Shown here: positions 10,056-62,221 of the stretch, one piece after another
Numbering within the stretch: position 1 is the first letter of the stretch
Layout: each line of letters opens with the position of its first letter
Source: Marasmius tenuissimus
Lineage: Eukaryota; Basidiomycota; Agaricomycetes; Agaricales; Marasmiaceae
Direction: 5' to 3'
DNA length: 64,000 nucleotides
NCBI GenBank assembly: GCA_029532415.1
Contig: JAQOTA010000042.1
Span: 682,001-746,000 of the forward strand
The notes under the pieces: generated by a model
Database searches by the model: none
What the model was told of the DNA's origin: nothing
What the model saw: only the letters and a program-made list of their open reading frames with translations
Program-made: the position numbers and the translations under genes

Positions 10056-11079
10056 GTCAAATTAGTATGCCCCGGGGCGGAGTGGAAGAGAAATAAACAA
10101 GAACATATCCTCCGTTCTCCTCGACGACAGCGCCAAACGTGAGAAGGCCGCGTGGTGCATAGTCTGACAGGTCAACCCTCCATAATCTCCCCAAAGACCC
10201 AATCACGTACAACAGGCTGCCGAAAGTGCGTTCAGAATAGGTGGTGATGTCATCAACATCGAGTTGGGGATGAATTCCTTGGGGAGTGGGGTGAATGAGG
10301 AGTCAGAATTGTTATCCTCCATTCGCTCGATGTAGGTGGAAGCCGGGTCGTAGAGCCAAGATCTGGCGTTGACATCGATAATCGAGGTAAAGATAAACCA
10401 ATCATCCCCGACATATCAACCATAAAGCTCTTCTCCACTAGCCAGCTCTGGAACCCAACCCAGTCAGCCGACTTTGGTAATTGGTCTAGCAGAAACCATT
10501 GTACCTGCGTGCATGATAAAAGTTGGCATCTCTGACGACATCAGTCCCAACATCTGATTCAATGTGGTCTAGGCGCGATTGTCGAGATGAGGGCCAAAAA
10601 AATCGTATCAGATTGAGTCCTACCTGTTAGTTCGATAAAAGATCACCCTTGTAGATTTTGCGGTATTGAGTCTGCCTCGCCTAAAGTTGACCCAGATTCA
10701 GCGACATATTGACCACCAATCTATATCGTTGACGCACCATGGGTCCGTTACCGTCTTCCTCGCATCTGCCAGTACAACATCGGTTTATGGTTGTGACGTT
10801 CCTGCCGATATATTGAAACTGTGGGTTTCCGTTGAATACAAGGCATCGGGCATTGGGGAAGATATTCGACATGGTGGTAAAGTCGAGGGGGACCGGGAGC
10901 AGAATTGACACATCATCTGTAGATATGCATTGTGAGGCCTCCAGCTGACATCACTTCAGCCTCGTGGTATACACGATCTAATGTTACACATGAAACCCGT
11001 CAGCGCCCAGCCTCAAGCGACACTTTCAATCCAATCTCCTCTACCTCCACTAAGAATGTAGCGAGTTCATCAAAAAGCC

Positions 11080-11860
11080 GCGGCACTCCAGGTAAGATCG
11101 TTTAAGACTGGGGCTTCACCGCACTCAACATATCGAGTTACTATAGACGAGATGTATGAATGAATGTCAAGTGTGCTTTGGCACTGTGGACCACTATGCG
11201 CAGATTCGTGCTTGATAGACACCAGATTATAAACCCTCTATTGCCCCGACGGGAAGTATACACGTTTAAACGTTGTGATCATCAATCATTCGGCATATTA
11301 CTAACCTGAACTGCCTCGGACAGCAGCTGTGGAAGAGGTCCTTCATATCCGGTGGACCAATCCGCCTGTTTTTCATCAAGAAGCCTTAAATTTGAGGAGG
11401 TCAAATGATCTCCACCCATACATCACGGAGCGTACCCATTGTCCCGAGCGCAAGTTTAATCTAACTTAGGTTCAGGTTCTCCGGACGCCTCAGGCTCAGA
11501 CTTCTCCGAAAGAAAGCACCCTCCAACCTCTCGCTGAGGAGACCAAAGGCTGGGTACTGTGGTCACCCCCTTGTTCTTACTAGCTGCCATTGATTGCTAA
11601 ATTTGCAAACCAGAGAAGGACAACATTACTCATCCAGATCTTTTCGAGTCATTGAAGTATATCAGGTGCTGCACACTTGAGATCCCTGCCTTTCCCAGAG
11701 GGGTCAATCTATCTTGTCCATGATGTGGCGGACTTCCGGTCTTAACTTCCGCATATCCGGGAGCTTCCGAAATGACGCAGGTGCTGGAGCCCGGAACTGA
11801 TGTGACTGGGTGTGACTCAGACTGAATACGTGACACTTTTGAACTTTCTGTCCTACTCCC
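11080..11860. repeat. Flank of copy B, then unassigned sequence
   Basis: Bases 11150-11500 repeat the flank at 1430-2060 and 18935-19500, with internal deletions. From 11500 to 11860 no gene or repeat is recognised. Confidence 0.5.
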
Positions 11861-16695: not shown

Positions 16696-18687
16696 TTTGA
16701 CCATCAATATGCTCAATGCAGAGCGGTGGAACAAAGAGGTAGGCAGGGAGAGATAATGTGTGGTTATGGGGAGATTTGCCGGTGAGGGAGAATCCTACTT
16801 CATCAATGAGATCTGGATGTAGATATTAGATGGAGGTGAATATGCAAAAGTTGACCAGTGAGAAACTCACAGACATTGTGATCAGCGATTGAGGAATCAT
16901 GCTGACTGAGATAGGCTCCGCGGAGTCGATCTCGGTCCTTTGACAGAAGGCACAATGAGAAGCGTAGATTGACTTGAGCCTCGTAGATGTTGGAGGATTG
17001 AAAGTTCACCCGTGAACATACTACATTGCTCAGCAAAGTATCAGATAAGTAGATGGATTCAGGCACACCTTTCCCAGAGTAACTTGCCTTGATGTTGCAG
17101 CTGCGTGACTCAAATTGCCACTCAGGAAGCGGGGCGGAAGGGAAGTGAGCAAGAACATCACTTCCCCAGGATCTTGCAATGGTGCCAAATGTCAGGAGGC
17201 CGTGTGGTGCAAAGCTTGACAAGTGTTCCCTCCACGTGCTCCCAAAAGACGCAATCAGGTACAACAGGCTACCAAAAGTGCGCTCGAAATAGGCGGTGAT
17301 GTCATCAACATCGAGTCGGGGACGAGTTTCTTGGGGAAGTGGCACTGGGCGCAGGATTGCGTAACTTTCGACGGATATTCGAGATTGATGCTAAACTTTA
17401 TTCAGGGAGATCTTAGCATAAGTCGTGGAACAAAGGAAAGAGATACCTAGTACCGGAGATGGGTGGAAATGCGAAAAAGACGCTAGAATTGGAGTTTCTA
17501 TCGCATTTCTCTCCCATATTGGTTCAGTTTGGGTCAAATATCTCTCGCATTGGCCACGGAAATTATGATAATTTCTCCCCAAATAAGCTTTCACATCAAT
17601 CCTCCGTTTCTCATCGAAACTTACGGGTTCTTGCACCCAGTGTGGGGTTGGGAAGGAGTCGAAATCGCCAGCCTCCTATTCTTTGACGGAGGTGGAAGCC
17701 GGGTCGTAGAACCAAGATCCGGCGCTGAGATCGAATGTCCAGTCGGACTCGCTGTCCGAAAACTGGTGTGCTATATTTAGCCAGGCACCACTAAACACAG
17801 CCAACTCACCGGAACTGCCACAGAGCCATCGGCACGGAGAGCTTGGATTGCGAGGTTCTGAAGACACTGTCAGCACGGGATGGATGGAAGAGTAATGGAC
17901 ATACACGTGTATAATTCAGGTAGAAAAAAATCAGTCCACGTTCAGGATATCGACCAAAAAGCTCCGATCCATTGGCCAGCTCTGGATTCCAAACCCAGTC
18001 AACCAATTTTGATAATTTGTCTAGCAGAAACCATCGTACTTGCGTGCATAATAAAAGCTGGCATCTCTGACAACACCAGTCCCAACATCTGAGTCAAATG
18101 CCGTGGTCTAGACGTCATTGTCGAGATGAGGGCCAAACAATCGTGCCAAATTGAGTACTACCTGTTAGTCGTGTATGTCTCATAGAGCTTTTTCCACAAC
18201 TATATCACATTGTCACTCCATGTAGTTATTGCAGAGCTCAACGTGTACTCACCTCGCACAAAGTGGCCTTGTCTTTCTTCCCGACTGGCTCAAACTTGAC
18301 AACGGTGACCATGCAATTGTAGTTTGGATAGATAGCGGCGGTATGAAAACTTTGTATGACCTCCACACGTGTTTGTTTAGGGCTTCAAAAAGGATTTGTG
18401 GGCCTCGCGATGCAAATATTCATCTGTATCGACCACACGGGGCCCTTCGATAACAGATCACCCTCATAGACTTCACGGTATCGAGTCTGCCTTGGCTGAA
18501 GTAGATACAGATTCAGCAACATATCCACCAACCATCTATATCATTGACGCACTATGAGCCTGTTTTCATTCTCTTCGCATCTGCCAGTACGACATCGGTT
18601 TATTGTTGTGACGTTCCCGCCGATATGTTGAAACTGTGGATTTCCGTTGAAGACAAGGCCTCGGGCATTGGGGAAGATATTCGACAT
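16696..18687 (-). pseudogene. Copy C of the repeated gene family, C-terminally truncated and MITE-disrupted
   Basis: The start exon MSNIFPNARGLVFNGNPQFQ begins at 18687, and the following exons include ..WKKLYETYTTN (about 18185-18225), LTQMLGLVLSEMPAFIMHA (about 18100) and FGRYPERGLIFFYLNYT (about 17920). Similarity stops at about 16696 within the penultimate exon, so the last family exon is absent. A 300-bp MITE interrupts the large middle exon at 17343-17642. The paralogous exon reads straight through this point, so the copy is inactive. Confidence 0.72.
17343..17642. mobile_element. 300-bp MITE with CACTG termini inside copy C
   Basis: It begins CACTGGGCGCAGGATTGC and ends TTCTTGCACCCAGTG, flanked by TGG at 17340-17342 and 17643-17645. 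Paralogous copies read GAAGTGGGGTTGG across the site. Removing the element plus one TGG restores that string exactly, which proves insertion with a 3-bp target duplication. It is a full-length relative of 4610-4908. Confidence 0.93.
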
Positions 18688-18934
18688 GGTGGTCAAGTTG
18701 AGGGGAACCGGGACATCATCTGTATATGTGAAGCCTCCGGCTGACGTTCCTCCAGCCTCGTGGTATACACAATCTGGTGTTGCACATGAACCCGCCAGTC
18801 GGCAGCCTCGAGCGACACTTTTAATTCCGATCGCCTCCACCTCCGTTCAGAATGTAGCGAGTTCATCAGAAGGCTGCGGCACTCCGGGCAGGATCGTTAA
18901 GATTGGGGCTCACCGCAAGCAGCGTCCCAACATA

Positions 18935-19510
18935 TTGGACATCTAAGAATGAATGTCAAGTGTGCTTTGGCTCACTCAAACCACACACAAAGACGAAGGT
19001 ACACCGTAGACTACTACGTGCAGATTCAGGCTTGAGCTTTGACAGATGACAGAGACACCAGATTATGAACCCTCTATTGCCCTGACGGAAAGTAAACACG
19101 TTTCAATCATTCAATATATCAATTATTTGAACTGCCTTGGACACCAGCTGTGGAAGGCACGCTGAGGACCTTCATATCCAGTGCACTAATCCACTGCTTC
19201 TTCATGAGATTGCTGTGAAGAAGTACTATATTCCACCTCTCCTTGAACTTGCTCCCCAGGTGCTTTCTTTCGGAGAACCTGACCCTGTGTTGAACATTTA
19301 ACTTGCGCCCAGGGCAATGGGTACGCTCCGCGATGTATGGGTGGGATCCGAGGGATCATTCATCGTGCTTGAATTAAGTCAAACGTAAGTTTTTCTCCAA
19401 CTACTCCCATGATAGTGGGTTTCATGAATCCTATTCACCACTCTGTTTCTCGTATCATACTTTTCACTTTTGAAAAACCTCCCGGTGCTTCTCTGAAATA
19501 CTTACGACCC
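18935..19510. repeat. Duplicated flank of copy C
   Basis: This is the third copy of the flank also at 1430-2060 and 11150-11500, starting with AGAATGAATGTCAAGTGTGC. No coding sequence is recognised. Confidence 0.6.
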
Positions 19511-19777
19511 TCCTGGTCGCTCTGTGGATCACAATTCGCCTTGATCTAGACAGAGGCAGATCACAACAATCAAGCGGAAGAATAGGCCAATTGAACACGG
19601 TGTAGTACGTGGATGTTTCACTTGTCTATTTCGCTTACCTTCGAGTCATCTCAGTCGTGATTCTCCTTTCAGCTGGTGTTAATTGTTTATTCGATATCGC
19701 ATATCTAAGGACGTCTGCAAAGGTCTGCCACCGGCGTATCTGTGTGTTTTTCTCTACGCTACGAAATAATTGTGTCG

Positions 19778-22940: not shown

Positions 22941-23650
22941 GACAACGTACCTTCGAAATGTCAACGGTGCTCCACATATGTATCTCGGATCCCCTTTCGT
23001 GTTGTGCAGCATTCTTTGAGACCTGATGACCGCCTGAGCGTCGGCGGCAATCTAGAGAAGAGGACAATAATGATGTGAGTTCTTGACGTAAGGGAGGTGT
23101 GAGAGACGAGGATGAAAGAAAATAATGGAAGGGAGAGTGAAAATTGAGCCAGGATGCTACCCACCTGATGATTTCCACGTGCTTCACGCCAACACTCCGC
23201 TTTCAGCGTCCAGCCTGATGGCGCAGAATCCAGTCCAACTACTCTACTCGCGTATCGACCTGTCATGTATTTCCCTTACTCTGGGTCGGCTCGCAAGCCT
23301 TTCCGACTTGAAATTGGAAAACGCGGTCCCATGGGTTCATGTCTCCCTATCGCAAAGCATCTGGAAATATTTCAGCTCGACCTCGACTTTTGGCCACTGT
23401 CTTGTCAGAGAACGACGCCGTGTGTCTTCAGTAATGTCTCGCGATTAAACAATTTGATTAAATCTACCATAGCGGCGTCCCGCTACAGTATGTTCATTGA
23501 ATTTAGTAGACCTATTAGATACACGCTCCTGGTTTTCGTTGAGCTGTACCGGTGCCAATCTAGAGCGACGGATCACAGTGAACGTAAGAGGGACCTGTTG
23601 CCCAGAGAGCACTATCTACAAATCATGGGTTCACTGTAGTCTCGCCTAGC

Positions 23651-23712
23651 CAGACCACACTACCACGAACTCTTTTGTTGAATTTGAGTGTCGTTGTGGT
23701 ATGTGGTCTGGT
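23651..23712. other. Strong imperfect hairpin upstream of the helicase gene
   Basis: CCAGACCACACTACCACGAA and GTTGTGGTATGTGGTCTGG are near-perfect inverted arms, about 20 bases each with a loop of about 20. It lies 130 bases before the helicase start and just inside the presumed left border of the helicase/DUF6589/Ulp1 cassette. It could be an element end, a replication or recombination structure, or a fragment of a MITE. Confidence 0.6.
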
Positions 23713-23843
23713 AGTTAGCGCGGGGGTCTTTGGTGTAGCCAAATTTTGACATCATAATTGCCATGCGAGCTAGCCACGCGAGCAGCTAAGCCCGGCGTCT
23801 AATTTACTTCTTTCACATGTACATCGACGTTCAATAGCGTTCA

Positions 23844-25980
23844 ATGTCAGCCAGTCACCCATTCCGCTCTCCTACTGGTGCTTCAACCCTCAGTGTTATA
23901 GTCCAAAAGCTCGTACCCCAATGGCCTACCGGTCTGAAGCCCTTCCAGCATGAATCCATCCTCAAAATCCTGGATCAGCAACAGTTACTTTGTATCACGG
24001 CAACTGGAGACGGCAAATCAGCTCTCTTTGCGATTCCTATCCTGGTGCATCTCGAACTTGGCAGACTACCCAGCCAGTATCCCAGCCTCAACGTTATAAC
24101 TCGAAATCAACCTGTTGGATTGGTGGTAACACCTACGAAAGGTCTCGCTAATAAGATAGTGCGTGTCGACGAGACTCGACCTACTTGTGTGACTAGACAC
24201 TTACTAAAACACTTAGGTTCGAGAGCTTGAACAGTTCCGTATCAAAGGATTTGCATACACCCACGAAAATGTCTCGGAGGCGAAGCGTGCAGGCCGTAAA
24301 CTTGTAGAAGAAATCACCGAATGCTCATATCAGGTCATTTGTGTCGATCCCGAGCATCTATGCGACTTGGAATGGTGGAAAATCCTCAATTCGTCAAAGT
24401 TTCGGTCCAACATAGTCTTTGCGTGCGCCGAGGAGTGCCATCTGATAAATGAATGGGGACTCAGCTTCCGACCCGCGTTTCAAAACATCGGTGCCATTTT
24501 TACCAGTCGCCTTCCATCTCACATTGCAAGATTTGCACTCACTGCTACCCTCCAACCCGGTCCCCCTACAAGCTCTGTTTGTAATAGTCTCGGTTTCTCT
24601 GGTCCCTCTTTTCATCTTGTTCGACGATCCAATGCACGTCCGAATACAAAAATCATCCTCCATACCCTTACATCCCCTATCAGCGGTACTGAATTCCCCC
24701 AGCTTCTTCCAATTCTCAATGACCGCCGTAAAACTGTAATTCACGCGGAAACCATACGTCTAGGATATCAGATCTTTCTGTATCTCTTCAAATGCCTTAA
24801 GCACGCTCAAAATCCCCTGGAACGGATCCGAATGTATAATTCACCTGCTAGTGACCGGTATAATGAGGAGACGGTAGCACTCCTCAATAACGACCCACGC
24901 TTACAAGTCATTATTGCTACCCAAGCATTTACGAATGGTATGCATGCGAAAAAGCTCACGGATAGCATCTCTGTAAAGGCTGCTACGACGCAAGATGCTT
25001 CGGAACAGCAGGGAGGTCGCGTTGGGAGAGATGAGACAACAGTTGGCCGTAGATTTATTCTCGCCACCCCGACTGAGTTGAAACAGGCTAAGAAAGTTGT
25101 TGAAGGTATGTTGTACCTACTGTCTTTAGCTTGTATATTGACTAAGTGATATTAGCTTTCCCGGACGATCTTGACCTTGCTGCCGGGTTCTCCACTGCGA
25201 CCCTCAAGTCATCTGACATGGATCCGGCGAAAGCAGTTTTCTTGACGGAAACGAGATGCAGGGTTGCATCTATCAACCGCATCTATCAGAATCCACCTCT
25301 CTCGGAGTCTACCCTCGACTGCGTAGCCGCCAAACGGCCCCAACCCTGTGATCTGTGTTGTGCGCGACATGCTATCCCTGACAACCCCGAACCATTTCTC
25401 AAATCGTCAAATCACGACCTTCCACTCTTCTCCCCCTCCCAAAAATAGAAATTCGAAGTCGAAACGTGGTCTCACGAAGAAGCAAGCAGCAAAACTGACC
25501 GAGGCCCTTGCAGTCTACGAAGATGCACTATGGCTTGATGAATCGAATGGTCTTGCTCACTCTTACTTTCCCAAGAGCGCCTACCTCCCGAAGTCCCTCA
25601 TCGCTACACTTGTTTCCGAATTCTCCTCCATCAAAAATATCACTGACCTTCAACGTATACTCTCATCTGGCAATACGGAGTGGCTATTTGGAGACCATCA
25701 AAATTAAAAACTATTTGATGTGATTTCCACAGTACGCAGGTCTGTTATTGCTTCCCGAAAAAGGAAGGCCAAGCCAAAGAAGCCTGAAAGCGATTCTGAG
25801 GATGAACCAATGGCCTTCAATGACTATACCCTGGAGGCAAGTGAGCACGTTGCAACCCGAACCACAATATGTCCGAACGACACTGGAGAGCCTAGAGGTG
25901 TTTCTTGTACCGAGCCACAGTCGACATCCCGCAAGAGAATTGCTTCCGATCAACCACTGAATCCACCAAAAGCAAAGTGA
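23844..25980 (+). pseudogene. RecQ-like DNA helicase (Agaricomycete cassette type), degenerate
   Basis: Three exons give a superfamily 2 helicase: 23844-24158, 24217-25105 and 25156 onward, with clean GT..AG introns. The N-terminus has a Q-motif-like FQHES (residues 34-38) and Walker A ATGDGKS (53-59). VVTPTKGLA is motif Ia-like and ICVDPEHL follows. The Walker B position reads AEECHLINEWG instead of the usual DE(A/C)H, so the first acidic residue is shifted. FALTATLQ is motif III, IATQAFTNGM motif V and QQGGRVGRDE motif VI. CDLCCARH is a remnant zinc-binding segment. Near 25440 the frame shifts by one at a CCCAAAAA tract, and an in-frame TAA at about 25705 is followed by continued family-like sequence (KLFDVIS, then a basic tail KRKAKPKK). 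DNA-unwinding activity is predicted for the family, but this copy is probably dead. Confidence 0.85.
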
Positions 25981-26104
25981 AAGCCTCTTCAAACAGCTGC
26001 CGAGGTCACTTCTGCTTATGGGCCAGCGTACCGGACAAACGCAACTGCACGGCGCTCAAGGCGTGAAGTTCCGGAAGCCCATGATTGAATAAACTGTATC
26101 ACAG

Positions 26105-29100
26105 TCAGTCATATCTGTCCGATTCACTACCACTTTCTGACACGCTACTTTCAGCCTCTTCACTCTCATTGGTAGCCGCTTCTTCATCATCCTCATCTTC
26201 AATGTCCCAAAATTCCTCATCCAACTCTCCTTCGTTCATCCAATCCTGTATGAGCTCCCCGGTCGCTTCGTCAATTTCGGGCATTGTTTCTGGTCCTAAT
26301 TCAAGTCGTGAGTAGTCCTCGTTAGTGGTATCATCACCAGCCATGGCTGATTTACTTTCATCACTACTCGGGTGGCGGCTAGCTTCATCGTCAGATTCCA
26401 CCCTTTCAGACTCGCTCCAGCTCCTACATTCACTTTCACCACTTTCGCTCTCATGGTCCGAACCAATCTCGGCATCTGAGGACTTCGGCGGGATAGGTGT
26501 TTGGGATGTAGATGTAGATGGTGATGGAGAGGAATTCGGAGTGGATTCTGGTTGGAGGGGAGTTCTTAACGTTGGTGGATCTCGTAGCTCCTTCAATACA
26601 TCAATGAGACTGCTATGTCTGTTGAGTAGCTCGGTTAAGACCCCGTTGTTGAGCTTCTCGTATCCGAGACCGAGGAAGTTAACTGCTGCATGGCCGAGAG
26701 AGCGACTTGGAGTAAAATAGTGAAATGATTCCTCGTCGAAAAGCCGCAGTAGCGAACGGAACTCATCCCGTAGATGAAGGGATGTGTGAGCCTGCGGCCG
26801 TTTATGAAGGTCAAAGGCAAGTTCCAGTTCCTTCTTCAATACGAGGAAGAAGTCAACGTTTGGGGAGATTGATTTTCGTAGGAATGGATCATCAAATGCC
26901 ATCCCACTCTTTCCGACGTGATCCTCTAGCCACCTATTGTAGTGTTCCTGCATAAGATCGGCAGGTATCCACTTCCCGAGCTTGCCTGTGAGATTTACCA
27001 GCCAATTATTCCAGATTGCATCCTTCAGCCCAGTGCTCGACTCGTACTTGAACAAACTCCAAAGCTCCAACAGGATATTTCGATAGTTATTGTTCCCGGA
27101 CCCGGCGAACATGAACATCCACACCTATACAAAAGATCAATTGACGAAATACAGGCGATTTGAGCCATATTGTACCTTCATGACTTCAAATGCTCGACCT
27201 ATATCCCCATCAGAGATGGCATAGGCCACCTCGATCCACAACGAATAATCAAACTTGAAGAGTATCGAGTTGGCCAGGACACAATCTCCATCGAATTCAG
27301 CCTTCTCCTTATGATAGCCGTCACCCTTCTTTCCCTCCCCTTTGTTTGAATCTCCTGCAGCGTCATCTACCTCCATATCTGCTCTCGTAGTATTGCTTTC
27401 CATAGGCCGTACAGGGAACTTCGCGTCATCAGAGGCCGCATTGTTACGGCTACTGGAGAGGGCTTGATCATATGCTCGGGGGGTGGCGTAACAGTCAATG
27501 AGCATTTCCGACATATTGAGAAGGGTTTCAAATGACGGGAGCTTGTCTTCATGTCTAAGTTTTTCGAAGTGGGGAATGAGGTCACAATACGACGAGAGTC
27601 CAAGCAAGATCCTGGTATTAACTGTGAGTCAAAGTTGGTAACGGAATAAAACAAGACTCACTTCCAACAGTCTAGGAACTGTGCATCCAAGATTGCGCCC
27701 ATAGATCGGCACAGGCTATAGTAGTTCGATGTGTCTCGAAAATTGCTGGGACGCTTGAACTTCGCAGCACCAGCACTTCTCGATAGGGCTGAAGGATCAG
27801 TGGTGGTTGCAGGTCCGAAATGATTTGCGGCAATAACATTTTGGCTAGTTGCTTGGCGTGCCAGAGCTCCATTATTGGCAGCAGATTGGAAAGAGTATCA
27901 TAGTCGGTGGTGGAAGAGCTGGATGGATCTACGTGTGTTGCGAGATAATTCTTTGCTCGTTCCATGGATAGAACTGAGCTGCCATCACCAGAGACCCAGA
28001 AGATATGCTTCGAAGCATGCTCCGGCTGTATTCCTGACTGTGAGAAGAAGTCGTGTAAACACCTTGTCATTCCAGCTGTCTCCATCTCCTTCTCCGAGTT
28101 CGTTCCTAGCGGTTGAACTCTCGTCTTTCGGCCATCGCGCATCCGGTGAATTGCAAAACCACCAGGGGACCTGAGGCGCTCGGAGATTGATTGTAGATAG
28201 TGGGAAAGGGGAGGAACAAAGTGGCAAAGAGTACGAAGTGAATGCAAAGCTTGAATACCACGTATGTGAGACCAGTTGATGCTCTTGAAGAGATCAAGGG
28301 TTTTGACGTTTGCCCGTTCATTCTTGAGAAGCCGAGAAAGATAGTCCAAAAGATTGAAGGCGTTCGAATCACAATCGTCGAGAAATATACATGTACATGC
28401 TGTCCCGCAAATGAGAGTGTTTTTGCGAGCTGCACCGCCTTTGTATACCTCGGCAAATCTCTGAGTGTTGTCCAAGACCCAGCGGAGTAACACCCGTCCT
28501 TCCCGAAACCCAAACCCAACTTCATCACGTAGCTTCCGGAGAGCGTCATCTGCAAGCGTCTCGAGGGCCTCACGAGCAGAGGTATCGTGTATACTGAGCC
28601 CCATTCGACTGTATAGCCGCTTGACATCGATGTGAGATTTGCACGCAATGTGCCAAATCCCCGCAACCGCAGCAAAATGACCGTTGGCATATTGATTTCG
28701 GGCAGAAACAAACGCACTAATGGCAGCAAACTGAACCTATTGATTGGGTTAGACTACCCGTCCACACATACGACAATGCATAAAGAAAGCAGACATACAA
28801 TGGGATTTGAACGTCGGATCCGGACAACTGTCTTTCCAGCCTTTCGGGGGCCAGCCATACATTCTGTCAAGTACCAGCTCAACGGAACCCGCTCCTTGAA
28901 GTGTTTGACCCGCTGCAAGACTGAAAATGATGAGATATTGTCCGCACTCCCTTTGCCTTCCCTCGGTCATTGGTTGAAGCCACGAGACGAACCCGGTAAG
29001 GCGTAGTTCCATCATCGGCAGTGAGGAGACCTATCTCTCTGTGAACTCGTTCTCCGATTATCCGAGTCATCCAGCACGAGATAGCAACATGAGCATAGTT

Positions 29101-29320
29101 CAAAGCCTCGGGATTTGTAGACGAAAAGGCAAGGTCACGCTCGTAGAGATATGCTGATTTGGAAGCGGGGGAGGAGTAACAATGACCATAAATGGCAGTG
29201 GTCAGGTCAAGGGGCGTGTCCTTCGAGTCACCCTGCAGAAAAGCCTTGAGCTTGCGCTTGTGCCGTTTGCCGTATTGACCGGACTTCTCGACCGTAATAG
29301 GTGGAATTAGAGGGGCCATA
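26105..29320 (-). pseudogene. DUF6589-family protein, main part, frameshifted
   Basis: Exons on the minus strand match the DUF6589 pattern: LKAFLQGDSKDTPLDL, then VPLSWYLTECMAGPRKAGKT, then GIWHIACKSHIDVKRLYSRM, then AIHRMRDGRKTRVQPLGTNS, then AILDAQFLDCWK and MFMFAGSGNNNYRN. These are followed by NNWLVNLTGKLGKWIPADL, MQEHYNRWLED and SRSLGHAAVNF. A serine-rich, very acidic tail ends at 26105. Clear introns lie at 27125-27175, 27622-27661 and 28738-28797. Frameshifts are needed near 28945 and near 27700, where the frame of one segment must change to recover the next, so the gene is broken. The biochemical role of DUF6589 is not established. Here it faces the helicase tail-to-tail, 124 bases apart. 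Confidence 0.85.
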
Positions 29321-29329
29321 ACAATTTGC

Positions 29330-30135
29330 AGGCCATGTGGCGAAGGCCGGCGTGAAGGCCAAGTGCAGGCCATATGCAGGTACAGGCAAGGTGCAGACCA
29401 TACAAAGGGTAAGGGAGATGGTTGTAATTTTGATTTTTTGTGTTGGTATTATAGATGTCGACCTGAAAACAATTTCAGCGACATATAATTATTATAACAA
29501 GAAAAAGGAATCCACTTAGTTGACTTCCCGGACTTACACTTAGCCGTGGGAGTCTGAACGACTTGAATCACAATTAACGCTATGTAGACGGATACACTCT
29601 AGCTTGGTGGACAAAGGAAAAGGCCGAGAGAATCAAGTCAAGATTGATGCCGAAAAGGCATCTACCCGACCAAGGGCCGACCGATAACTAAAACGGTCCA
29701 TTGGAGGCCCGATATTCTGAGAGGTTTCGGTTGTCTCTCACTGGGTACATCTGTAGTGTGTACAGCTCGGTGATAGAACTAACAGATATAAATATGGAGT
29801 CTATCACATGGGCGCTCATGGCCAGCTGCAGGTCAGATTTGAGTTTATGACGGCCAAGTGAAGGTTGGATACGCGGGAATGCAGGCCATGTGGCTGTGCG
29901 GTGCAGGCCGGGTGAAGGTCAGATTCATGGTGGTGAAGGACAACTGCAGGTTCGATTCACAAAGGTGAAGGCCAGATTAAGGCCAGGTGAAGGTCAGACT
30001 TCCAAATGCGAAGGCCGGGATGAGGGCCAGATTGCAAGAATGAAGGCCAGGTGAAGGTTATTATCCAGGAGATTGAAGGCCAGGAATATTCCAAAAAGGC
30101 CAGATGCAGTGAATTGTAGGCGAGAAGACGGTGGG
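29330..30135. repeat. Degenerate GAAGGCCAGGTGAAGGTC-type repeat tract
   Basis: Variants of GAAGGCCAGGTGAAGGT and TGCAGGCCATGTG recur many times at 29330-29400 and 29820-30130, with another short cluster at 30490-30530. All lie in the same purine-rich sense on the plus strand. The tract separates the main DUF6589 part from its N-terminal part. A former minisatellite or the subterminal repeats of an element are both possible. Confidence 0.7.
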
Positions 30136-30529
30136 ACGCGGTCAATTTAGAGAGTTTATGATGATATCTTCGCTTACACTCGTTTGCGAGGATATGATGA
30201 CACAAATATGGCCCGATAGGCTGGCCATTTTCGTCTATAAGTACTACGAATGGCCTAAAGTCACCCATAAATACCTCAGTTGACCTTAAATTTACATGAG
30301 CAAGCACGAAATGGGATTGCTGTGAATCATAGTGGTGGGAACAACCGAAGTGACGAAGACATGGAGAATTTTATTTCAACGAATAGTTTGTTTTGGTTGA
30401 TCAATAAAGCAAACTGACCGAGTCGAAGCACGATACCCTATTTCAATCTCTATACGTGAGGGATTCCTCGACAGCAGGATGGATAATATGTGCTGCAGGC
30501 CAGGTGACGGCGGGTGTAGGCCATGACCT

Positions 30530-31248
30530 TTACCCCGGCCTGCATTTTCTCGCGCCCCGAATTAGAGCAATGAGGAACGAGCCCAACGACCGGTATCCCA
30601 GTTCATCAAAGATGAATCCTAGAACCCTCTTCATCTTCTCTTTCTCAGTCATCATCGGCTTCCCTGTAGCCCGAGGTTTATATTCTCGAGTTGTGGCAAT
30701 TCCAATAGAGTCCAGACAAGTATGAGACAGTGTTGGTGACACATTTGAGTAGTATTCGTCGAGAGGCTCCCAGATAGCTGACGTAGAAGGAGTAACCGGG
30801 CTAAACCAAAGGAAGGCTGTAGGGGAATTGACGTTGAAACTGAGCTGTAATCCAAGGAATGGGATGGCGGTGTCGATGATGCACGATCATATGAGCTATA
30901 ACGAGCGGAAACCGGTCTTCCTGCGCCCACTCTTTCTTCTCTGAGTTCTTCATAACGAGAATGTGTCCGAGAGTTTGACGGTTAGGATGGTGGGGGTGGC
31001 ATGGTATTTTCTGGTGAATTCTGGGCATTTTGAATCGATGTTGAGGGCTTGAAGAATGGTGAGAAATTGTGTGTGGTCCGCTTTCGTTCTCTTCCTCTCT
31101 GCCTCTTCTCATTCAGCTCCTCGTATCGCGACTTCTTCTGGGAATTGGCCGGGGTACTCGTGGCCACATTTTCCAATGGATTTCGGGCATTCTGTCGCGG
31201 TGTTGGTGGAAATGAAGGGTTCATAGCCATGAAAGTGAGCAATGGCAC
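30530..31248 (-). pseudogene. N-terminal part of the DUF6589 protein, broken
   Basis: The plausible start MNPSFPPTPRQNARNP is at about 31224, and a low-complexity basic region follows. It contains two imperfect repeats, SRYEELNEKRQRG and SRYEELREERVGA, separated by an in-frame TAA at about 30982. After a frameshift near 30800 the frame continues to TEKEKMKRVLGFIFDELG then YRSLGSFLIALI, which fits the N-terminal helical segment that precedes the LKAFLQGD block in DUF6589 proteins. The continuation would be the exon beginning near 29320, so repeat sequence and about 1.2 kb now divide one gene. Confidence 0.6.
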
Positions 31249-31259
31249 AGAGTTTGATT

Positions 31260-32940
31260 GAAAAAAAGATGTATTATTGACAGTAGAGAAAGGTGCACGT
31301 CGTGGTCGCGGCGAAAGATGGGCTGCCCAGCGCGCGTTCCCTCTGATCGCCGTGCCGCGTGGCCTCGCGTGGCAATTAAGACGTCAAAATTTCCCTACAC
31401 CAAAGACCCCCGCGCTAACTACAGGACTAGGTTCACTGAGGTTGGTGCTGTAATGAGAGCTCGGAATAGGGTGGCTACGGAAAGTCGGAGCGTTGGAATT
31501 TACATTCAGGCCAAACCATTCCGCTTACCATCTACAAAAGGTCACGATTCATCAAAAAAAGTCATATCTACAACAACATTGTGGTTGTATTGTGGCGCCA
31601 GAAGGGCAATTCTGGTCAGATTTTTGGGTGTAGAGAGTCAGAATTGACCGGCATCTTGTATCATACCCTACGATGTCACTAATGCTGCAGTTATGGGAGC
31701 AGCTCTATGGTGTGTCGACAAGAGGGGGGTCGTTAGGCCTCCAAGTTCCTCTTGTGTATGCACTCTTCTCATGTCTCAAATTCAGAGGATCTTCGCTGAG
31801 CTTCACTTCTTTCAGGTCATTTTCTCCCTCGAATACTCGCTGTCGTTGGTTCAATATCAAATGCAATGCTCCCGCTACCCGGAATCTTTCTAGTTGAACT
31901 ACCGTTACAACACTGCTCAAGCTCGACATCCCAAGGGTGCTACAACATCTCCGCTTCAGCCCGCTCCATGATCTCTATACTGGTGGTGGCGACGTAGTCG
32001 TCTACGTACACCCCGACGCGCTCTGAGATTGAATACGAGATTTACAGTACATTTCGTCCGTTTGTGTGTGATATCTTGCTAACACCTGAAATCTCCTTTG
32101 CAGCGTTGTATAAGCTATGACATCTGTACGTATGCTCTTGGCTTTGGTACCATCCCAGATGTCTATGTCCGAAATTTTCATTCTCAAAGACGCTGGAGAA
32201 CAATCGCTTCTTGAGGTCTATTACTCTTGCATTAGCCCAGACAAGAACGAGAAAAAAAAGCTAAAATGGTAATATACCTTTCGCCGTCCTTACGCCTATA
32301 ATTTCATTCAACCCAAGCAGGATAAACTCTTTCCCATTCAACGAAAGATGGAAGAATAGGGCAAATTGTGAAAATTACTTGAACAGATGATAGAGAGGAA
32401 GGCGCACGCTTCGGGGAGTTCAGGAGCACTAAAGAATAGGCAAGCGAGAGATTGATGTTAGTTGGAGGTATTGGCGAAGGAAAGCCGGATTCTTCCTCGC
32501 CTTGAGCAGCGCCCTCCCTTTCCTTCTCCTAAATTTATCAGACCAGTGCCTCCACAAGTGGAGGCAGCAGGCTAAGCATTCAAGTTGAGTGGCGGTTGGG
32601 TCGGTGATTTTGAACATGCCTCAGGATGGGATGGAAGAGGGTGTTTGATTTCATTGAGAGCGAAACATCATGCAGTTTTTTTTTGGTTTACCCAAGTCAA
32701 TCAATTGACAATGTCGGTGTCAAAGAGGTCAAGTTTGAGATGGTGTCGTTGCTCTTCGGGTTCCCAAAGTTAGGTTTAAGTGATTTTGGGAATTGGACTC
32801 TGGAGAGTAGCCATGGGATAAGAGTTTGTACGTGTCCAAAGGGTCAACTCGCTTGAGTGCATCGATGTTGCCACCCTAATGTATTCCGGAGTCCATAGTC
32901 TCTCGTTCGTTTATTCTCTTGATCTGCTCCCCTAATAGGG
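31260..32940. other. Spacer between DUF6589 and Ulp1-like genes
   Basis: Minus-strand frames at 31705-31929 and 32429-32617 could be decayed exons of the Ulp1-like gene. The second reads FRRRKGRALLKARKN, a basic C-terminal type of tail. No domain is recognised, and no repeat or RNA gene is seen. Confidence 0.35.
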
Positions 32941-32949
32941 TGCTTGGTT

Positions 32950-34120
32950 GGGTAAGATATTGTCTCGCCCGTACGCTTCGGAGTCGTCGCCGCCAACCAT
33001 GGGGCGATTGAAAGAGGTTCTGGATGAAGTATGGCGTGCAGGTGCGTACGGTCTCTGCATCTCCATGTCTGACAGTACTGAAGTTATCTCAAAGGCGTCA
33101 GGATTGACGAACCGTGCAGCTTCGAGAGCCGCATGGTAAGGCTCTCATCTCGAAGGGTTGCTCTGGGAATAACCGATTCATCCACCAGATCAAGATGTCG
33201 CTGAGCTCGGTAGGAGGGGGTATCCGTAATGAATCGCCGTGCGAGATTGAGTGTGTGGTAATATCAATGGCTATTGCGACCCAGTGGTTCCCCGGATTTT
33301 CGCCACGAGATGGTAACACCGCACTGCCAGGCGTGAGGCAGACAAAGACAGGGAACACTAATTGAGTGGCAGTCCCGTTCTTGAGTGCCTCACCCAGTCT
33401 GGTAATGTTCTTCCTCTTCAGGTGTCCTTCCTTGTCCTTCTCGTGGTACTCTGCAATGAGTGTATGAGCGAGGTAAACGTCCTCAACACGTACAGTGCCC
33501 TCAAGGGACAGCTCGGACTGTACTATTCCCACCATTGGGCATATTTGCACGTCGCTGAGCCATCTGTCGCTGAGATATCTCGCTAGATCCTGTGTGTTCC
33601 CCCAGTTGGGAGGAGGTAGCGTGTATTGCCATGGAATTGGATTGAGCATGCTGTACACAAATGCCGACGAGCCACGGTTGTTCAACCATTCTTGGACATT
33701 CGACCAAACCTCCTGGTATTCTTTGATTCTCACTGACAGATGCCAGTAGCTAAGAGTCCAAAGAGGGAGCCTCATGTCTGCGCGTGTGCTGTTCCGATCT
33801 TTGAATGGATAGACGATTGATTTCATGCCTGATTCAACGGCATTGTCGCCTCTTTTCAATAGAGCTGTGAGAATAGCATCGGAAGGCATGGGGTGCCTAG
33901 GGAGAAGGGCTTTGGCGTGGGATTCAGCAACCACGGGTGATTCAGTGGCCGCGAAAAGATCGAGGTCGGATGATGATGGCCAGTTCAAGGACGAGTCGAT
34001 GCCGAGTGGAGGGAGGAGTTTGTCGTGAAAATTGAGAACGGCTATTGCAGACGTGTCGGGGGATACAAATGTATTCGATATACGGAGCAAGACTTTTAAG
34101 AATTTTGAGGGGATCTCCAT
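32950..34120 (-). pseudogene. Ulp1/C48-type cysteine protease, catalytic cysteine segment lost
   Basis: A continuous 340-residue frame (34120 to 33098) holds WLSDVQI (187-193) and the C48 histidine motif NHWVAIAIDI (His279). HGDSL (Asp296) and ILIWWMNRLFPEQPFEMRALP follow. C48 proteases then need a Gln and a Cys, usually within a SCG-like motif. Here the frame runs into CGSRSCTVRQS and stops. Another frame takes over with AALEAARFVNPDAFEIT and TSVLSDMEMQ down to about 32950, which looks like the true continuation. A small deletion plus frameshift has therefore removed the catalytic Cys region. The family removes SUMO or similar modifiers, and Ulp1-like domains also occur in several eukaryotic DNA transposons. 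The copy is presumably inactive. Confidence 0.75.
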
Positions 34121-34129
34121 TTCGGGAGG

Positions 34130-34660
34130 TGAGGCTGAGTTGAGATGAGCGACGCATCAATTTTCAAACAATTTTTCAAAGGCTACGCATGTGCCCTTCA
34201 GAGGATTTGGACTTAGCCGGACGGCGCTTCACACTGATGCGTCGATTGGCCTGTATTTGCTTCCCTTGCTCGCGCGTACCCCAACGTGACCTTGGTCAAG
34301 AACTACGAGCATATTTCTAGCCTCTTTTTGACCGATCACATGACAGTAATTTACCGGTAAAAAACATTTTTGGTCAAAAACTAAACTTTTTCACTCAACC
34401 CTACTGTGAACGGCGCCGGTGTTATGGTTGTTATGATTACTTATTACCCTCAGCCGCGACTCCCAAACATGGCTCACGTCAGTCGCACATTCACGAAGGA
34501 ATAGAATAAACACAGTTCTTTGAAGCATTACAAGCAGGAGTTTAGGGAGTAGATAGATACATATTCTGCGAGTCTTCAGTGAAACTTCCCGAGTTCATGG
34601 TCATGGGGTCTTTCTACTTTTAGGATTCGAGGAATCGACTATAAACGTCTCTTTAGAACG
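34130..34660. other. Non-coding right flank of the cassette with short palindromes
   Basis: CGACGCATCA (34150) and TGATGCGTCG (34232) form a 10-base inverted pair about 75 bases apart. TTTACCGGTAAA at about 34351 is a perfect palindrome. Both lie between the Ulp1-like start and the 3-prime end of copy D. They may mark an element end, but no partner is seen at the left border near 23.6 kb. Confidence 0.45.
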
Positions 34661-34663
34661 GAC

Positions 34664-36799
34664 CTACATGATTTCTCGTGACGTACTCATACCATTGAGC
34701 ATATCGATGAATGAAGATGTCGACGGACACATGGATTGAGAGCCCGTTTGGGAATGTCCTTCTTCGGCCGAGTCTTCGAGCTCAATGATTCTTCTATCGT
34801 GAGGATCACCTGAAGCAAGTGGAAGGTCTTAGAAGGAGCGAGTCGGAGTGAGGAGTACGCACCTTGAATTAATGTGGGGTACCCGTGATCTCGAGCATAA
34901 CGCTTCCCATCGGACTCGTAGCCCTTGTCGCGCAAATGTGTTTTGACAAACTCATACTGACTTTCCCACCACCATGACCCAATCCAGGTCTGAACTTCCA
35001 ATTGAGGTATTCCATGTCTTTCCCATTCATGCTCCGGAATCGGATTCTTTCCCTCTGGGTCCGACGACCAGTAAAATAAAGAATCAGGCAAGGGAACACG
35101 TATACAGTACAGTCCATTGATGTATTCCGTGCGGAGAGGTGGAACAAAAAGGTACGCAGGGGGATATTTTTTTGGGTTGTGGAGAAAGTTGCCGAAGAGA
35201 GAGAACCCCACCTCGTCAATGAGATCTGGATGAAAATATCAGATGATGGGAAACACGCAAAACTAAAATACTCAAACTCACAGATATAATCATGAACCAT
35301 TGATGAGTCGTGCTGACTGATATAGGCGATTCGAAGTCGATCTCGGGTTTCCATCAAAAGTCGCAATGAGAAACGTAGATTGACTTGAGCATGGTGGGTG
35401 TCAAAGATTTGAAGATCAATACGCGAACAGGCTAAGTCAATCAGTAAAGCAAATACTAGATGAATGTAAACGGGCACACCTTTGCTAGAGTAGCTCGCCT
35501 TGATCTTTTGGCTGCGAGATTCAAAGTGCCACTCGGGAGGCGGAGTAGAAAGGAAGTGAGCAAGAGCTTTGGTTACCTCGTAGTGATTGATAACGGCCCC
35601 GAAAGTCAGAGGGCCACTCTGTGCATTCTGCGACAGGTTGACCCTCCAGGTTTTCCCCAAGGACACAGTTAGGTCTAACAGGCCACCGAATGCGTGCTCA
35701 AAATGGGCGGTGATGTCATCGACGTCCAGTCTGGGACGAGTGCCTTGGGAAAGTGGGGTGGGTGAGAATTCGGAGTTGTCGTACTTGGGTTGTTTGATGG
35801 AGGTGGAAGCGGGGTCATAAAGCCAAGACCTGGCGTTGAGATCAAAAGTCCAGTCTGACCAGTTATCCAAGATCTGGTGTGCTATATTTAGCTATGTAGG
35901 GACAACTAAATTAAGTCAACTCACTGGAATTGTCAGAGATTCATCAGCACGAAGGGCTTGAAGTGCAGCTCTCTGAAGACTTTGTCAGCGAGGGTTAGAT
36001 ACGAAACAATAGCCATACACGTGAATAAACAAGATAGTTGTAGACTACATCATTCAAGCTGTACCGACCGGCAACCTCCCGTGCACTGGTCATCTCTGGA
36101 ATTCCAAACCAGTCAGTTGACCTTTGACAATCAGTTTTGTAAGCCGCAAAGCATACCTGCATGCAGAATAAACATTGGCATTTCTGACTTCACCAATCCT
36201 AACATCTGAGTGACTTGTGGTGATCTAGATTCAACTCTTGAGATAGAAGACCCCAGATTCGGGTGCCATATTGGGTCTCACCTGTTAGTTGAGTATGCCT
36301 CGTAGAACTCCCGCCATAACTTTTTTCTTTGTTAATCTGATGTTTAACTATTGATCATGAGGGCTTACCAGGTGCAGGATATCCTTATCTTCCTTATCCC
36401 TCGGCTCGACCGCGACTGCGGTGAACGTTCGGGAAGGCAATTGGGCAACTTCTACCGTTTGATATTTTTTGGTGACCCGAATCCGTCTCATTCGACCCCG
36501 AAACGGGTTTGTGCTCTTCACATAAAGGCTCTTGTTGACTGATGAAACCTCGCTTCGGAGTATTAAATCACCCAGGAAGAATTCTCTGAATAGGTTTTGG
36601 CTTGGCTGTGTAAAAATGCAAGTCAGGTTGTGCTTCAAAAATCACTGAGATGACACACCATAAGTCTGTTTGACCCTTGACCTTTGCATGTTTCGGACTG
36701 ACAGTGGTGTATGTTTGTCGTGACATTTCCAGAGACATGCTGAAATTGTGGATTACCAACAAAAGTAAGGTCTCGGGAATGTTCGAAAAAAGTGGACAT
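34664..36799 (-). CDS. Copy D of the repeated gene family, most complete within the window
   Basis: The start at 36799 gives MSTFFEHSRDLTFVGNPQFQ followed by HVSGN. An intron (GTGTGTCATC to TTACACAG, in phase) joins to PSQNLFREFFLGDLILRS, YVKSTNPFRGRMRRIRV and VEVAQLPSRTFTAVAVEP. Later exons include KKLWREFYEAYSTN, WTFDLNARSWLYDPASTS and NLRFSLRLLMETRDRL. The block AYLFVPPLRTEYINGLYC then leads to FYWSSDPEGKNPIPEHEW and ARDHGYPTLIQG. The last exon, GDPHDRRIIELEDSAEEG to STSREIM, stops at 34664, shorter than the E-type tail. Function is unknown: there is no catalytic motif, signal peptide or clear membrane helix. The conserved intron pattern across copies argues for a once-functional gene of about 500 residues. 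I saw no stop in the parts I followed, but the central exons were not checked base by base. Confidence 0.65.
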
Positions 36800-38170
36800 T
36801 GTGGTAAAGGCAAGGGAGAAGTAGGGTTGGAGCAAGATGTTCTTATATTTGTGAGATCCCGGTTCATATTCTTTCACACACTCAAAAAACCACCAACAAA
36901 CAGCTTTGAGATGCATACCTACGATCTGATGCTTGAGGTAAACTCTATAAAAGGCTATAGCACACTGTTTCAACATCACTGACTCAGAAGGTTTCCTCAA
37001 TTGGAACTTCCACAAACATTGACTGACTACCAGTGCACACAAAGGACATGTATAGAGACAGGTGCACTTCAGACTACACATGAATTATCACTCCAAGAGT
37101 TTCAACTGAGACACAAGGATGTGGACTTTTGCAGGTGCAACAGCATGAGAAAGATGTCAATCTTAGCTATTTAGCCGGTCTTGCAGACTGACCGGCCCGA
37201 CAGAGCTCCACACTATCAGGTGGCATTCAGGAACATACCTCAAAGAGGTTTTGGGTTTGAGGGATGTATAATAGCCACCGTGGCACAGCAAATGATGGAG
37301 AAATTGGAAAAGTTCTCTTGTTTCCACCAAAAGAGTCAGCCTGTGAGAATTCTGGCATGGTCGCGCCGATTAGTCTGTACAGGCTGACAGTGATGACAGT
37401 TGGGACTGAATAATGACCTTTACCAATGTGGGAATCAAAAATCATCATCAATCGGACAGTCAATGGAAACATGAGCCTAACAGGCCGCAGCTTTGGAGCA
37501 AATGCCGAGACTCTTTTGGCTGGCCCATTCACTGGTTCTTCTTGAAGTTGCTCTCCAAGTGCCTGACAGTATCTCAGCTGGAGAAGTGATCACCCTGTTT
37601 CTAGTCTAGCAGCATGTTTCCAATTCATGTGTCTGTCAGGCCTTGCATAACTGTCAATACTTCCTCAAAAAACAACACCCAACAAACTCTTGACATCCAA
37701 ACTTCAACAATGTATTGTCTGCTCAGGATGGTGACACAGTAATCAAGAAAGGTCAAGGAGAGGTGATGCAGCACCCTTGTATTATCTAGCTAATCCTGTG
37801 TTGACCTTTTGTGGCAGGGAATGACGCCACAAAGATGCTTCAAGCGACCCATGTGCATTCTTGCTGTCATGCCCTACACAAATTGACAGTATCAGAAAAA
37901 CTGCTACCAGCTGATCTCACATTTGTTTACCAGGGGTATGACCATCTATGATAATTGACGAGCAGATCATCAGGGGATCTTACGCAGAAGATTTCGCCCA
38001 TTTCAGCATCTGATTCCATCAATGTATCATGTTTTATCTCAACATAATCACCTCTGTCAAGAAGGTACCAAGAAATCGATAGAGTCACAGATAACTTAGT
38101 TGACGGACAAGCCCTATAAATAATGTCGGTACCACAGTGTGACTCATTGTTACTTGTTGGTGCCACTCGT
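36800..38170. other. Spacer upstream of copy D
   Basis: The first 200 bases presumably hold the promoter of copy D and share scattered similarity with 46800-46990 upstream of copy F (CTCTATAAAAGGCTATAGCA here against CTCCACAAAAGGATTGGTTC there). The remainder has no recognisable gene. A short inverted pair, GCCGGTC and GACCGGC, lies at about 37170-37195. Confidence 0.35.
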
Positions 38171-44348: not shown

Positions 44349-44483
44349 CACTGGATGCAAAACAACATAATACCCATCACTTTATTCAAACTCCATGTTG
44401 AAATTATCCCAGATTTTGCATTTTCTAGAATAAATTCAACATAAAGTTTGCATAAAGCTACACATATTATATTATCTTGCACT
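44349..44483. mobile_element. CACTG-ended MITE lacking its right terminus
   Basis: It begins CACTGGATGCAAAACAACAT and follows the 140-bp element at 40616 along its length (shared TAGAATAAATTCAACATAAA). The right end stops at TATCTTGCACT, where the sequence passes straight into CTACAAATCCTGAGG, the 3-prime end of family copy F. The missing CCAGTG and missing target duplication imply a deletion at the junction. Confidence 0.75.
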
Positions 44484-46799
44484 CTACAAATCCTGAGGAT
44501 TAACCAGATCCCATCCATCCTGAACATCAGTGGGGCTTCCTGAGCTCACGGGCCCGGATTCTCTCTCCTCTTGTGCTTGGGAGAAACAGCTATCAATAGC
44601 TATTTAGAATAGGGATGTATAAATATTCATAAAATATTTGTACCATTCGTCCTTGTCCAAATTCCAAAGCCTTTCACCAGGATGGCAGGGATTGAAGATT
44701 TTTTCTCATGCACAACTTCAGATTGTGTAGGTGTATCAACCAGTGAAAATGTTGATGGGGAAGTGAGTTGAGATCTTGAGGTGGACAGTTCTTCATCATC
44801 CGAGTTATCAAGCTTGGTTATCCTTCTATCATGAGGATCACCTGGAGCAAGCATCAGGTTGTATTGGAGTTAGAATAAATACAACACACACCTCGTATCA
44901 AATTGGGATAGCCATGATCTCGAGCATACTGCTTGCCATTGGACTCGTAACCTTTCTTGTGTAGATATGTCTCAACAAGGTTGTACTCGTCATACCACCA
45001 AAACGACCCAATCCATGTCTCAACCCTCAGTTTAGGTATCCCATACTTCTCCCAATCCTTCTCTGGAATTGTACCCTTTCCTTCTGGGTCTGATGTCCAG
45101 TAGAACAGCAGGTCAGGGAAGGGAGCATGTACACAGTACATTCAATTAATGTGCTCGATGCAGAGTGGTGAAACAAAGAGGTAAGCAGGTGGAGAGGATG
45201 CGTAGTTATGGGGAAATTTGCCAACAAGGATGAATCCCACGTCATGAACGAGGTCTGGATATAGATGTTAGATGGAGGTGAATATTCAAATGTAAACTAG
45301 TCAAAAACTCACAGATATTGTCACCAACCATCGAGGGGTCATGCTGACAGAGATAGGCCCTGCAGAGTTGATCTCGGTCCTTCAACAGAAGGCGCATTGA
45401 GAAGTGTGGATGGATTCGAGCCTCGTGGATGTTGGTGGATTGAAAATCAACTCATGAGCATACTACATTACTCAGCAAAGTATTGGATAAGCAGATGGAT
45501 GCAGGCGCACCTTTTTCAGAGTAACTTGCCTTGATTTTGTTGTTGTGAGATTCAAAGTGCCATTCAGGAGGCGGAGTGGAGGGGAAGTGAGCAAGAATAC
45601 CACTTCCATCCCCGTCGACGACAGTGCCAAATGTTAGAAGGACATGTGGTGCAAAGTCTGACGGGTCCTCCCAACCCGTGTTCCCAAAAGACACAATCAG
45701 GTGCAACAGGCTGCCTAGAGTATGTTCACAATAGGCAGTAATGTCATTGACATCGAGTTTGGGATGAGTTCCTTCGGGAAGTGGGGTGAGGGAAAGGTTG
45801 TAAATGTCATCCCCCCATTGTCCGATGGAGGTAGTTGGGTCATAAAGCCAAGATCCAGTGTTAAGATCGAATGTCCAGTCAGACACATCCTCCGGAACCT
45901 GGTGTGCTATTTTTAGCCAGGAACCATGCAAGATAGTCAACTCACCGGAAAAGCCACAGAGTCGTCCACATGGAGGGCTCCATGGGCTATTAGCAAAGAG
46001 GGGGGATAGAAGACTAATAGTCATACCTGTGTATACACAAGGTAGCTGTCAATCAATCCTCCATATTTCCATTGAAGCTCTCTCCCATTGGCCAGCTCTG
46101 GATTCCAACCCAGTTAGCCAGCTTTGACAAACGGTTTTGCATAACCCGTCGTACGTGCATGAAGGATAAAAGTCGGCATCTCTGACACCACCAATCCCAA
46201 CATTTGAGTAAACCTTGGTGATCTAGATGCAATGTCTCAGATGGCCCCAAAATTCTTGTGCTGAACTAAGCCACACCTGTTAGTTGAATAAGCCTCATAG
46301 AACTCCTTCCATATCTTTCTCTTTGTCAATCTGATTGCCACTTTGTTGATAGTTATGAGTGCCCACCATGTGCATGATATTCTTGTTGTTTCTATCCTCT
46401 GGCTCGACAGTAACAGTGGTGAACATTCAACTTGAAGGCATCTGGGCAACTTCCACATTCTGGTATTTCTTTGTAACCCGAACTTCCCGCCTCATCCCGC
46501 CACGAAACGGATTTGTGTTCTTTACATATAGTATTGTATCCATGGACGAAACCTCACTCAAGTATCAAGTCACCCAAGAAGAATTCCCTGAATAGATCCT
46601 GCTTCAGCTGATCGAAGCTGTAGGTAAGGCTTATTATACGCAGATTACCCAGAGGACATACCATAAGCCTGTTTGCGGATCAACCTTCGCAAGTTCCGGA
46701 CTGGCATTGGTGTACATGTGTGACATTCCCAGAGATGTGCTGAAATTGCTGATTGCCAATGAAAGTGAAATTTCGGGAGTTTTGGAAGAAGTTGGACAT
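44484..46799 (-). pseudogene. Copy F of the repeated gene family
   Basis: The start exon MSNFFQNSRNFTFIGNQQFQ then HISGN begins at 46799. Further exons include VSSMDTILYVKNTNPFRG, KRKIWKEFYEAYSTNR (about 46290), RSPRFTQMLGLVVSEMPTFI (about 46210), WTFDLNTGSWLYDP and VDVNDITAYCEHTLGSLL-like sequence. ARDHGYPNLIRG and GDPHDRRITKLDNSDDEE follow. The C-terminal exon reads VDTPTQSEVVHEKKSSIPAI but meets a TGA after NGTNIL near 44627. The remaining 140 bases still resemble the family tail (GFVDPHDL-like sequence ending at TAG 44484-44486). So the last exon is frameshifted or truncated, and near 45145 the block that reads MYC in other copies is altered upstream. Confidence 0.68.
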
Positions 46800-46879
46800 T
46801 GTGGTAGGGGGCAAAGAAGAACAAGGGCGAGTGTGGACGTTGCTCGTAGAGGATTCTAGCTTACATTCCCCTTGCCTTG

Positions 46880-62220: not shown

Positions 62221-62221
62221 T

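Follow-up and report, generated by a model that had tools for sequence, protein, structure and literature searches.

A decayed RecQ-helicase DNA transposon, very likely of the AcademH kind, in Marasmius tenuissimus, with DUF6589 as its proposed transposase

Do a RecQ-like helicase gene, a DUF6589 gene and a Ulp1-like protease gene that lie side by side in the mushroom Marasmius tenuissimus belong to a single mobile element, and what kind of element would this be? The genes are located in a 64-kb stretch of assembly GCA_029532415.1 (contig JAQOTA010000042.1, positions 682,001 to 746,000, forward strand), which is referred to here as the window and whose own numbering is used throughout. A first-pass annotation of the window, made from the sequence alone, described the three genes as a decayed cassette that probably represents an undescribed class of large mobile element. 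The first two of these genes, helicase and DUF6589, make up the gene content of a single DNA transposon (23637-31429), and the Ulp1-like frame is a neighbour of this element and not a component of it. In all likelihood, this transposon is of the AcademH kind and was autonomous before it decayed.

The extent of the element is defined by its ends. A repeat finder detected a long terminal inverted repeat, 89% complementary, with its left arm at 23706-23769 (plus strand) and its right arm at 31364-31427 (minus strand); this pair brackets the helicase and DUF6589 genes and excludes the Ulp1-like frame. Reading outward from the pair leads to the termini of a complete transposon of 7793 bp (TAGTC...GACTA), which has the 9-bp target-site duplication GGTTCACTG on either flank (left copy 23628-23636, right copy 31430-31438). 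The 64-kb window was also scanned for TAG...CTA pairs with 4-9 kb spacing that are flanked by an exact 9-bp repeat and agree at 6 or more of 12 terminal bases. The pair at 23637-31429 is the only one that qualifies, and the same scan on 30 shuffled windows yielded three pairs in total. Furthermore, five short non-autonomous copies (416-429 bp) carry the ends of the window element, each with an exact 9-bp duplication of its own (5/5). A search for a paralogous empty site returned nothing beyond the window's own two flanks. The suggestion that the genes sit in place of an expected duplicated segment ("flank 2") gives way to a clean insertion flanked by a target duplication of its own.

Relatives of the element were sought in the source genome (71 Mb). 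DUF6589 gave 98 matches forming 43 clusters, and the window helicase gave 37 matches forming 36 clusters. A DUF6589 cluster lies within 10 kb of 32 of the 36 helicase clusters (the other four have none), in agreement with the proposal that the two genes belong together; 10 DUF6589 clusters have no helicase match inside 15 kb. All 32 linked pairs are on opposite strands, 24 of them convergent and eight divergent. Seventeen linked regions were inspected, a non-random pick from the 32 in which near-identical pairs and well-scoring copies were taken first. The first-pass annotation had proposed to look among relatives for borders in common, inverted ends and duplicated targets, and all three were found in this genome: TAG...CTA termini with exact 9-bp duplications are present in 11 of the 17 regions, and all of the duplications differ. 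The 9-bp duplication of region C10 has one mismatch, and this case rests mainly on its TAGTCT ends, because a scan that tolerates one mismatch also lists chance-like pairs. No qualifying ends or duplication were found in the other five regions inspected (C37, C61, C28, C49 and C30d).

A comparison of 16 target duplications reveals no fixed target sequence. Two pairs of near-identical elements occupy different targets: one pair is 99.4% identical over 7035 bp, and in the other the identity is 99.8% across 4187 bp and 97.9% across 2699 bp. The members of a third pair agree at 99.0% in a comparison of 2632 bp. These pairs indicate that the family has moved recently. Across nine non-redundant elements, helicase similarity tracks DUF6589 similarity (Spearman 0.83; Mantel p 1e-4, the floor for 9999 permutations), and as judged from these sequences the two genes share descent within the elements.

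The helicase gene (23721-26064, plus strand) is present as decayed pieces at 23721-24164, 24217-25113, 25155-25430 and 25333-26064. It encodes a superfamily II helicase, and its RecQ-like identity, already recognised in the first pass, was upheld by profile and structure database searches. Matches were obtained to Pfam DEAD (E 9e-10), to Helicase_C (E 0.002, under its cut-off) and to the NCBIfam model recQ_fam (E 5.8e-13, under the model's cut-off), and all 25 matches at E <= 0.001 in a PDB sequence search are RecQ-family helicases. The DEAH box (within 24217-25149) is EECH in the window copy, and in relatives C7b and C30c it is EEAH, such that Glu replaces the first Asp. The motif is intact in C7a, C30a, C11, C30b, C6 and C7d, and its pattern was unmatched in C10, C54 and C7c.

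The DUF6589 gene (26222-31083, minus strand) is arranged tail to tail with the helicase gene, as had been described, and is the proposed DDE transposase of the element. It is decayed into pieces at 31083-30560, 29310-28778, 28736-27661, 27613-27158 and 27124-26222, and DUF6589 (PF20231) was matched in three minus-strand frames (E 2.4e-38, 2.3e-16 and 6.1e-26). A D/D/E triad is conserved across DUF6589 alignments, and the window copy retains all three proposed catalytic codons on the minus strand, namely the first Asp (DNTQR, 28470-28472), the second Asp (SGDGS, 27984-27986) and the Glu (QEHYN, 26945-26947). The predicted fold of DUF6589 relatives is RNase-H-like, with an RNase-H core and a helical insertion ahead of the catalytic Glu. 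The closest solved folds are those of the hAT (Hermes) and P-element transposases, with sequence identities of 6 to 10% when the structures are aligned. The comparison with RNase-H-fold transposases suggested in the first pass therefore does reveal a resemblance, at the level of the model. Based on the conserved triad and these predicted folds, DUF6589 very probably serves as the transposase in DNA transposons that carry a RecQ helicase.

Additional searches with this family were also performed. A Pfam scan of six transposase proteins gave DUF6589 alone above cut-off, and PF20231 is the sole precomputed Pfam domain in 120 of 120 and 58 of 59 DUF6589 proteins listed, the one other having none. 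Between the second D and the E, the C/DxxH motif is conserved at no H column, with any C/DxxH occurring in 10 of 81 alignment rows and 11 of 47; the best-conserved candidate H motif is GxxH in 79 of 81 rows and E/QxxH in 43 of 47. A PDB sequence search with DUF6589 gave no match, the DUF6589 alignment, run against viral contigs, gave 18 pattern matches of which none was confirmed, and a search with a mixed-family protein alignment gave four proteins only. Where the listed DUF6589 matches name an organism, which many do not, it is an agaricomycete; AcademH occurs in animals as well as fungi, and the word-based search may miss animals. The term "DUF6589" is absent from the open-licence literature searched, and the lone text match to PF20231 is an unrelated nanophotonics paper. 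As far as the open-licence literature goes, DUF6589 may not yet have been linked to a transposase in any publication.

Both genes of the window copy are broken, as noted in the first pass. Relative to the nearest delimited relative (C7:5931079-5937524), the helicase is fragmented and its third part shifts frame, and the DUF6589 gene is divided into pieces across several frames. The DUF6589 gene also contains a nested repeat of 1246 bp (29313-30558) that is missing from this relative and is flanked by GAATTAGAG at 29304-29312 and 30559-30567. The repeat ends in GGGCC and GCCCC, and its border is likely rather than certain, because a second 9-bp direct repeat, TGCAGGCCA, falls inside it. A genome search identified one copy that is 99% identical, on contig C49, together with 31 other matches that are partial and diverged, which suggests a recently active non-autonomous family. 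Due to the broken reading frames and the 1.25-kb repeat within DUF6589, the window copy is dead and has lost the capacity to produce the two proteins. The earlier view of a dead mobile-element copy is thus retained, with borders and a target duplication now assigned to it.

A structural feature is found just inside many ends of these elements. In the window element, a subterminal hairpin (CCAGACCACA...TGTGGTCTGG, 23650-23711, plus strand) lies inward of the terminal TAGTCTCG motif and ahead of the long inverted repeat, as indicated by a stem scan and by DNA folding of 23637-23720 (z -5.9). The right end is without it, and some other elements likewise carry the hairpin module at one end only. 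The terminal motif TAGNCTCG occurs in most ends examined, and in many elements a palindrome follows directly inside it, often with CCAG...CTGG at its base. A qualifying stem (score of at least 9, counted as matches minus 2 per mismatch, with at most one mismatch, in the first 120 nt) was found in 13 of 24 element ends compared with 2% of 300 internal controls. With near-identical partners removed, a stem is present at nine of 18 ends and in six of nine elements; the ends of C7b, C54, C6 and C7d fall short of the criterion. Single-strand DNA folding of five ends gave z-scores of -5.9, -7.1, -3.6, -2.4 and -5.3. The sequence of the palindrome varies among families, and even between both ends of one element (C7a, C11), while the hairpin persists. 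In the C7:5931079-5937524 element (region C7:5929000-5938500), the hairpin-bearing right end at 5937524 is doubled by a 70-bp slip covering the greater part of the target sequence; it looks as though copying halted within the hairpin and resumed at the target site. No mention of subterminal hairpins was found in the available literature passages on Academ, a comparison that lies outside the defining description of AcademH, reportedly Kojima 2020 (Mob DNA 11:15).

A mechanism can be proposed by analogy to the hAT and P enzymes. First, the transposase would pair both ends and excise the element. Next, the 3' ends of the element would be joined 9 bp apart across the target, and gap repair would leave the 9-bp duplications. 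The 416-429-bp copies would be mobilised in trans by the same transposase. More speculatively, the RecQ-like helicase could unwind DNA at or beside the ends, where it might aid hairpin extrusion for recognition or act in repair after insertion. Since the helicase gene adjoins hairpin-bearing ends, it is tentatively suggested, at rather low confidence, that a structured end is unwound, or extruded into a hairpin, and that its shape is part of what is recognised. We know of no hairpin-extrusion step for the hAT-like DDE transposases that DUF6589 resembles. The helicase is possibly dispensable, as 10 DUF6589 clusters have no helicase match nearby.

The assignment to AcademH is based on several shared characteristics. 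Academ transposons contain a RecQ helicase (PMC3627910), and fungal Academ copies match PF00270 and recQ_fam and are hence often annotated as host genes (PMC6416283). AcademH is a named group with 9- or 10-bp target duplications (PMC10045372) that is present in Basidiomycota, Ascomycota and Mucoromycota (PMC10799480), Academ is counted among the DDD/E transposases (PMC9587614), and putative non-autonomous Academ elements occur in Marasmius oreades (PMC8290104). In the window element and its relatives, a RecQ-type helicase gene likewise lies beside a transposase gene, the duplications are 9 bp, the DDD/E assignment follows from the conserved triad and predicted RNase-H-like fold, and the host is a basidiomycete. 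No difference from AcademH was established in this comparison, which covered helicase, duplication length, transposase type and host, and the name rests on architecture rather than on transposase sequence. The class is already described, contrary to the first-pass annotation, and what is new relative to the accessible literature is the DUF6589 assignment and the hairpins inside many ends.

Other known groups fit less well. AcademX belongs to the same superfamily as AcademH (PMC10045372) and differs in having a nuclease and 3- or 4-bp duplications, compared with 9 bp and no nuclease found here. The 9-bp duplications speak against AcademX, as does PF20231 as the only precomputed domain in the listed proteins, save the one with none. 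The AcademX nuclease is XPG, and no literature combining Academ, XPG and transposase was found. The hAT (Hermes) and P-element enzymes share the RNase-H core with a helical insertion before the catalytic Glu that is predicted for DUF6589; they are set apart by the low identity, by the lack of a conserved C/DxxH in DUF6589 and by the helicase added here, and hAT target duplications are 8 bp. The elements do not fit the C/DxxH groups as a whole (hAT, P, MuDR, Kolobok and Dada), given that this motif is not conserved in DUF6589 between the second D and the E. Helitrons have neither a target duplication nor inverted repeats and are ruled out by the presence of both.

The alternative that survives best, improbable as it is, holds that DUF6589 elements form a superfamily of their own that is merely AcademH-like in its RecQ-like helicase and 9-bp duplications. 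The class comparison covers architecture rather than transposase sequence, and the silence of the searched literature on DUF6589 would be consistent with such a group; in opposition, AcademH as published agrees with these elements in the type of helicase, the length of the duplications, the occurrence in fungi and the DDD/E transposase, and the recQ_fam model matched here is the one reported for fungal Academ (PMC6416283). It is less likely again that non-autonomous ends captured the helicase and DUF6589 as passenger genes and are moved by a transposase encoded elsewhere. Short copies with the same ends do exist, and ends are therefore mobilised in trans. However, the gene pair recurs in nine non-redundant delimited elements that have a terminal motif in common, its two genes share descent, and the conserved triad and predicted fold of DUF6589 resemble those of a transposase. 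KolobokH, the other fungal lineage with a RecQ helicase, is a very unlikely identity for the AcademH-like element described here. KolobokH, which is confined to fungi, does encode a RecQ helicase, and in one red-alga Kolobok family the RecQ helicase is on the complementary strand, as here (PMC9587614); the same source gives Kolobok duplications as 4-bp TTAA, and the 9-bp duplications of varied sequence seen here already refute this reading. The C/DxxH motif of KolobokH is likewise not conserved in DUF6589.

Equally unlikely is the three-gene cassette with kinship to Zisupton or MULE transposons that the first-pass annotation favoured. The Ulp1-like gene is adjacent, and 9-bp duplications are also typical of MULEs. 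However, this open frame (33098-34156, minus strand, 352 aa) is 1.7 kb beyond the border of the element and lies outside both the inverted repeats and the duplication. No Ulp1-like sequence was found in 12 delimited elements (best E 2.9), a search in which two DUF6589 proteins used as positive controls find nine and 11 elements, jointly 12 of 12. The genome contains three other matches to this frame, all partial (88%, 65% and 30% identity), none of which comes within hundreds of kb of a DUF6589 cluster, and the six transposase proteins show DUF6589 alone above cut-off. The three-gene cassette is consequently not real, and the Zisupton or MULE affinity falls with it, there being no Ulp1 gene inside the element. 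As for the C48 protease itself, a similarity is seen, but the match is under the Pfam cut-off (16.1 vs 20.7 bits, covering 41 of the 217 positions in the profile), and neither NCBIfam nor PDB gave a match. That ordinary host genes became linked by accident in a segmental duplication is scarcely credible, for although the surroundings are duplicated, at least 43 DUF6589 clusters, many with stops, are scattered over contigs, and near-identical copies whose target duplications differ already refute it.

The segmental duplication of the surroundings was confirmed. A diverged gene-like family is repeated in direct orientation (63-93% identity) at ~1-2700, 7240-7940, 10076-11376, 16701-19777, 34756-36826, 44477-46827 and 61033-64000, and "flank 2" (5747-7227) matches 61033-62510 at 75%. 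Four minus-strand frames of these repeats (363-1034, 2463-3053, 34872-35891 and 45455-46048) have no Pfam match.

The mobile element is real and well delimited, ordinary in kind and useful in detail. These findings provide a likely function for Pfam DUF6589 (PF20231), a multi-copy mushroom family whose members are listed as hypothetical proteins, and annotators could mask DUF6589 genes along with the adjoining helicases. The structural comparison would also place an Academ-type transposase beside the hAT and P-element enzymes. Should the hairpin ends prove important, the need for a helicase in a DDE element becomes a testable question.

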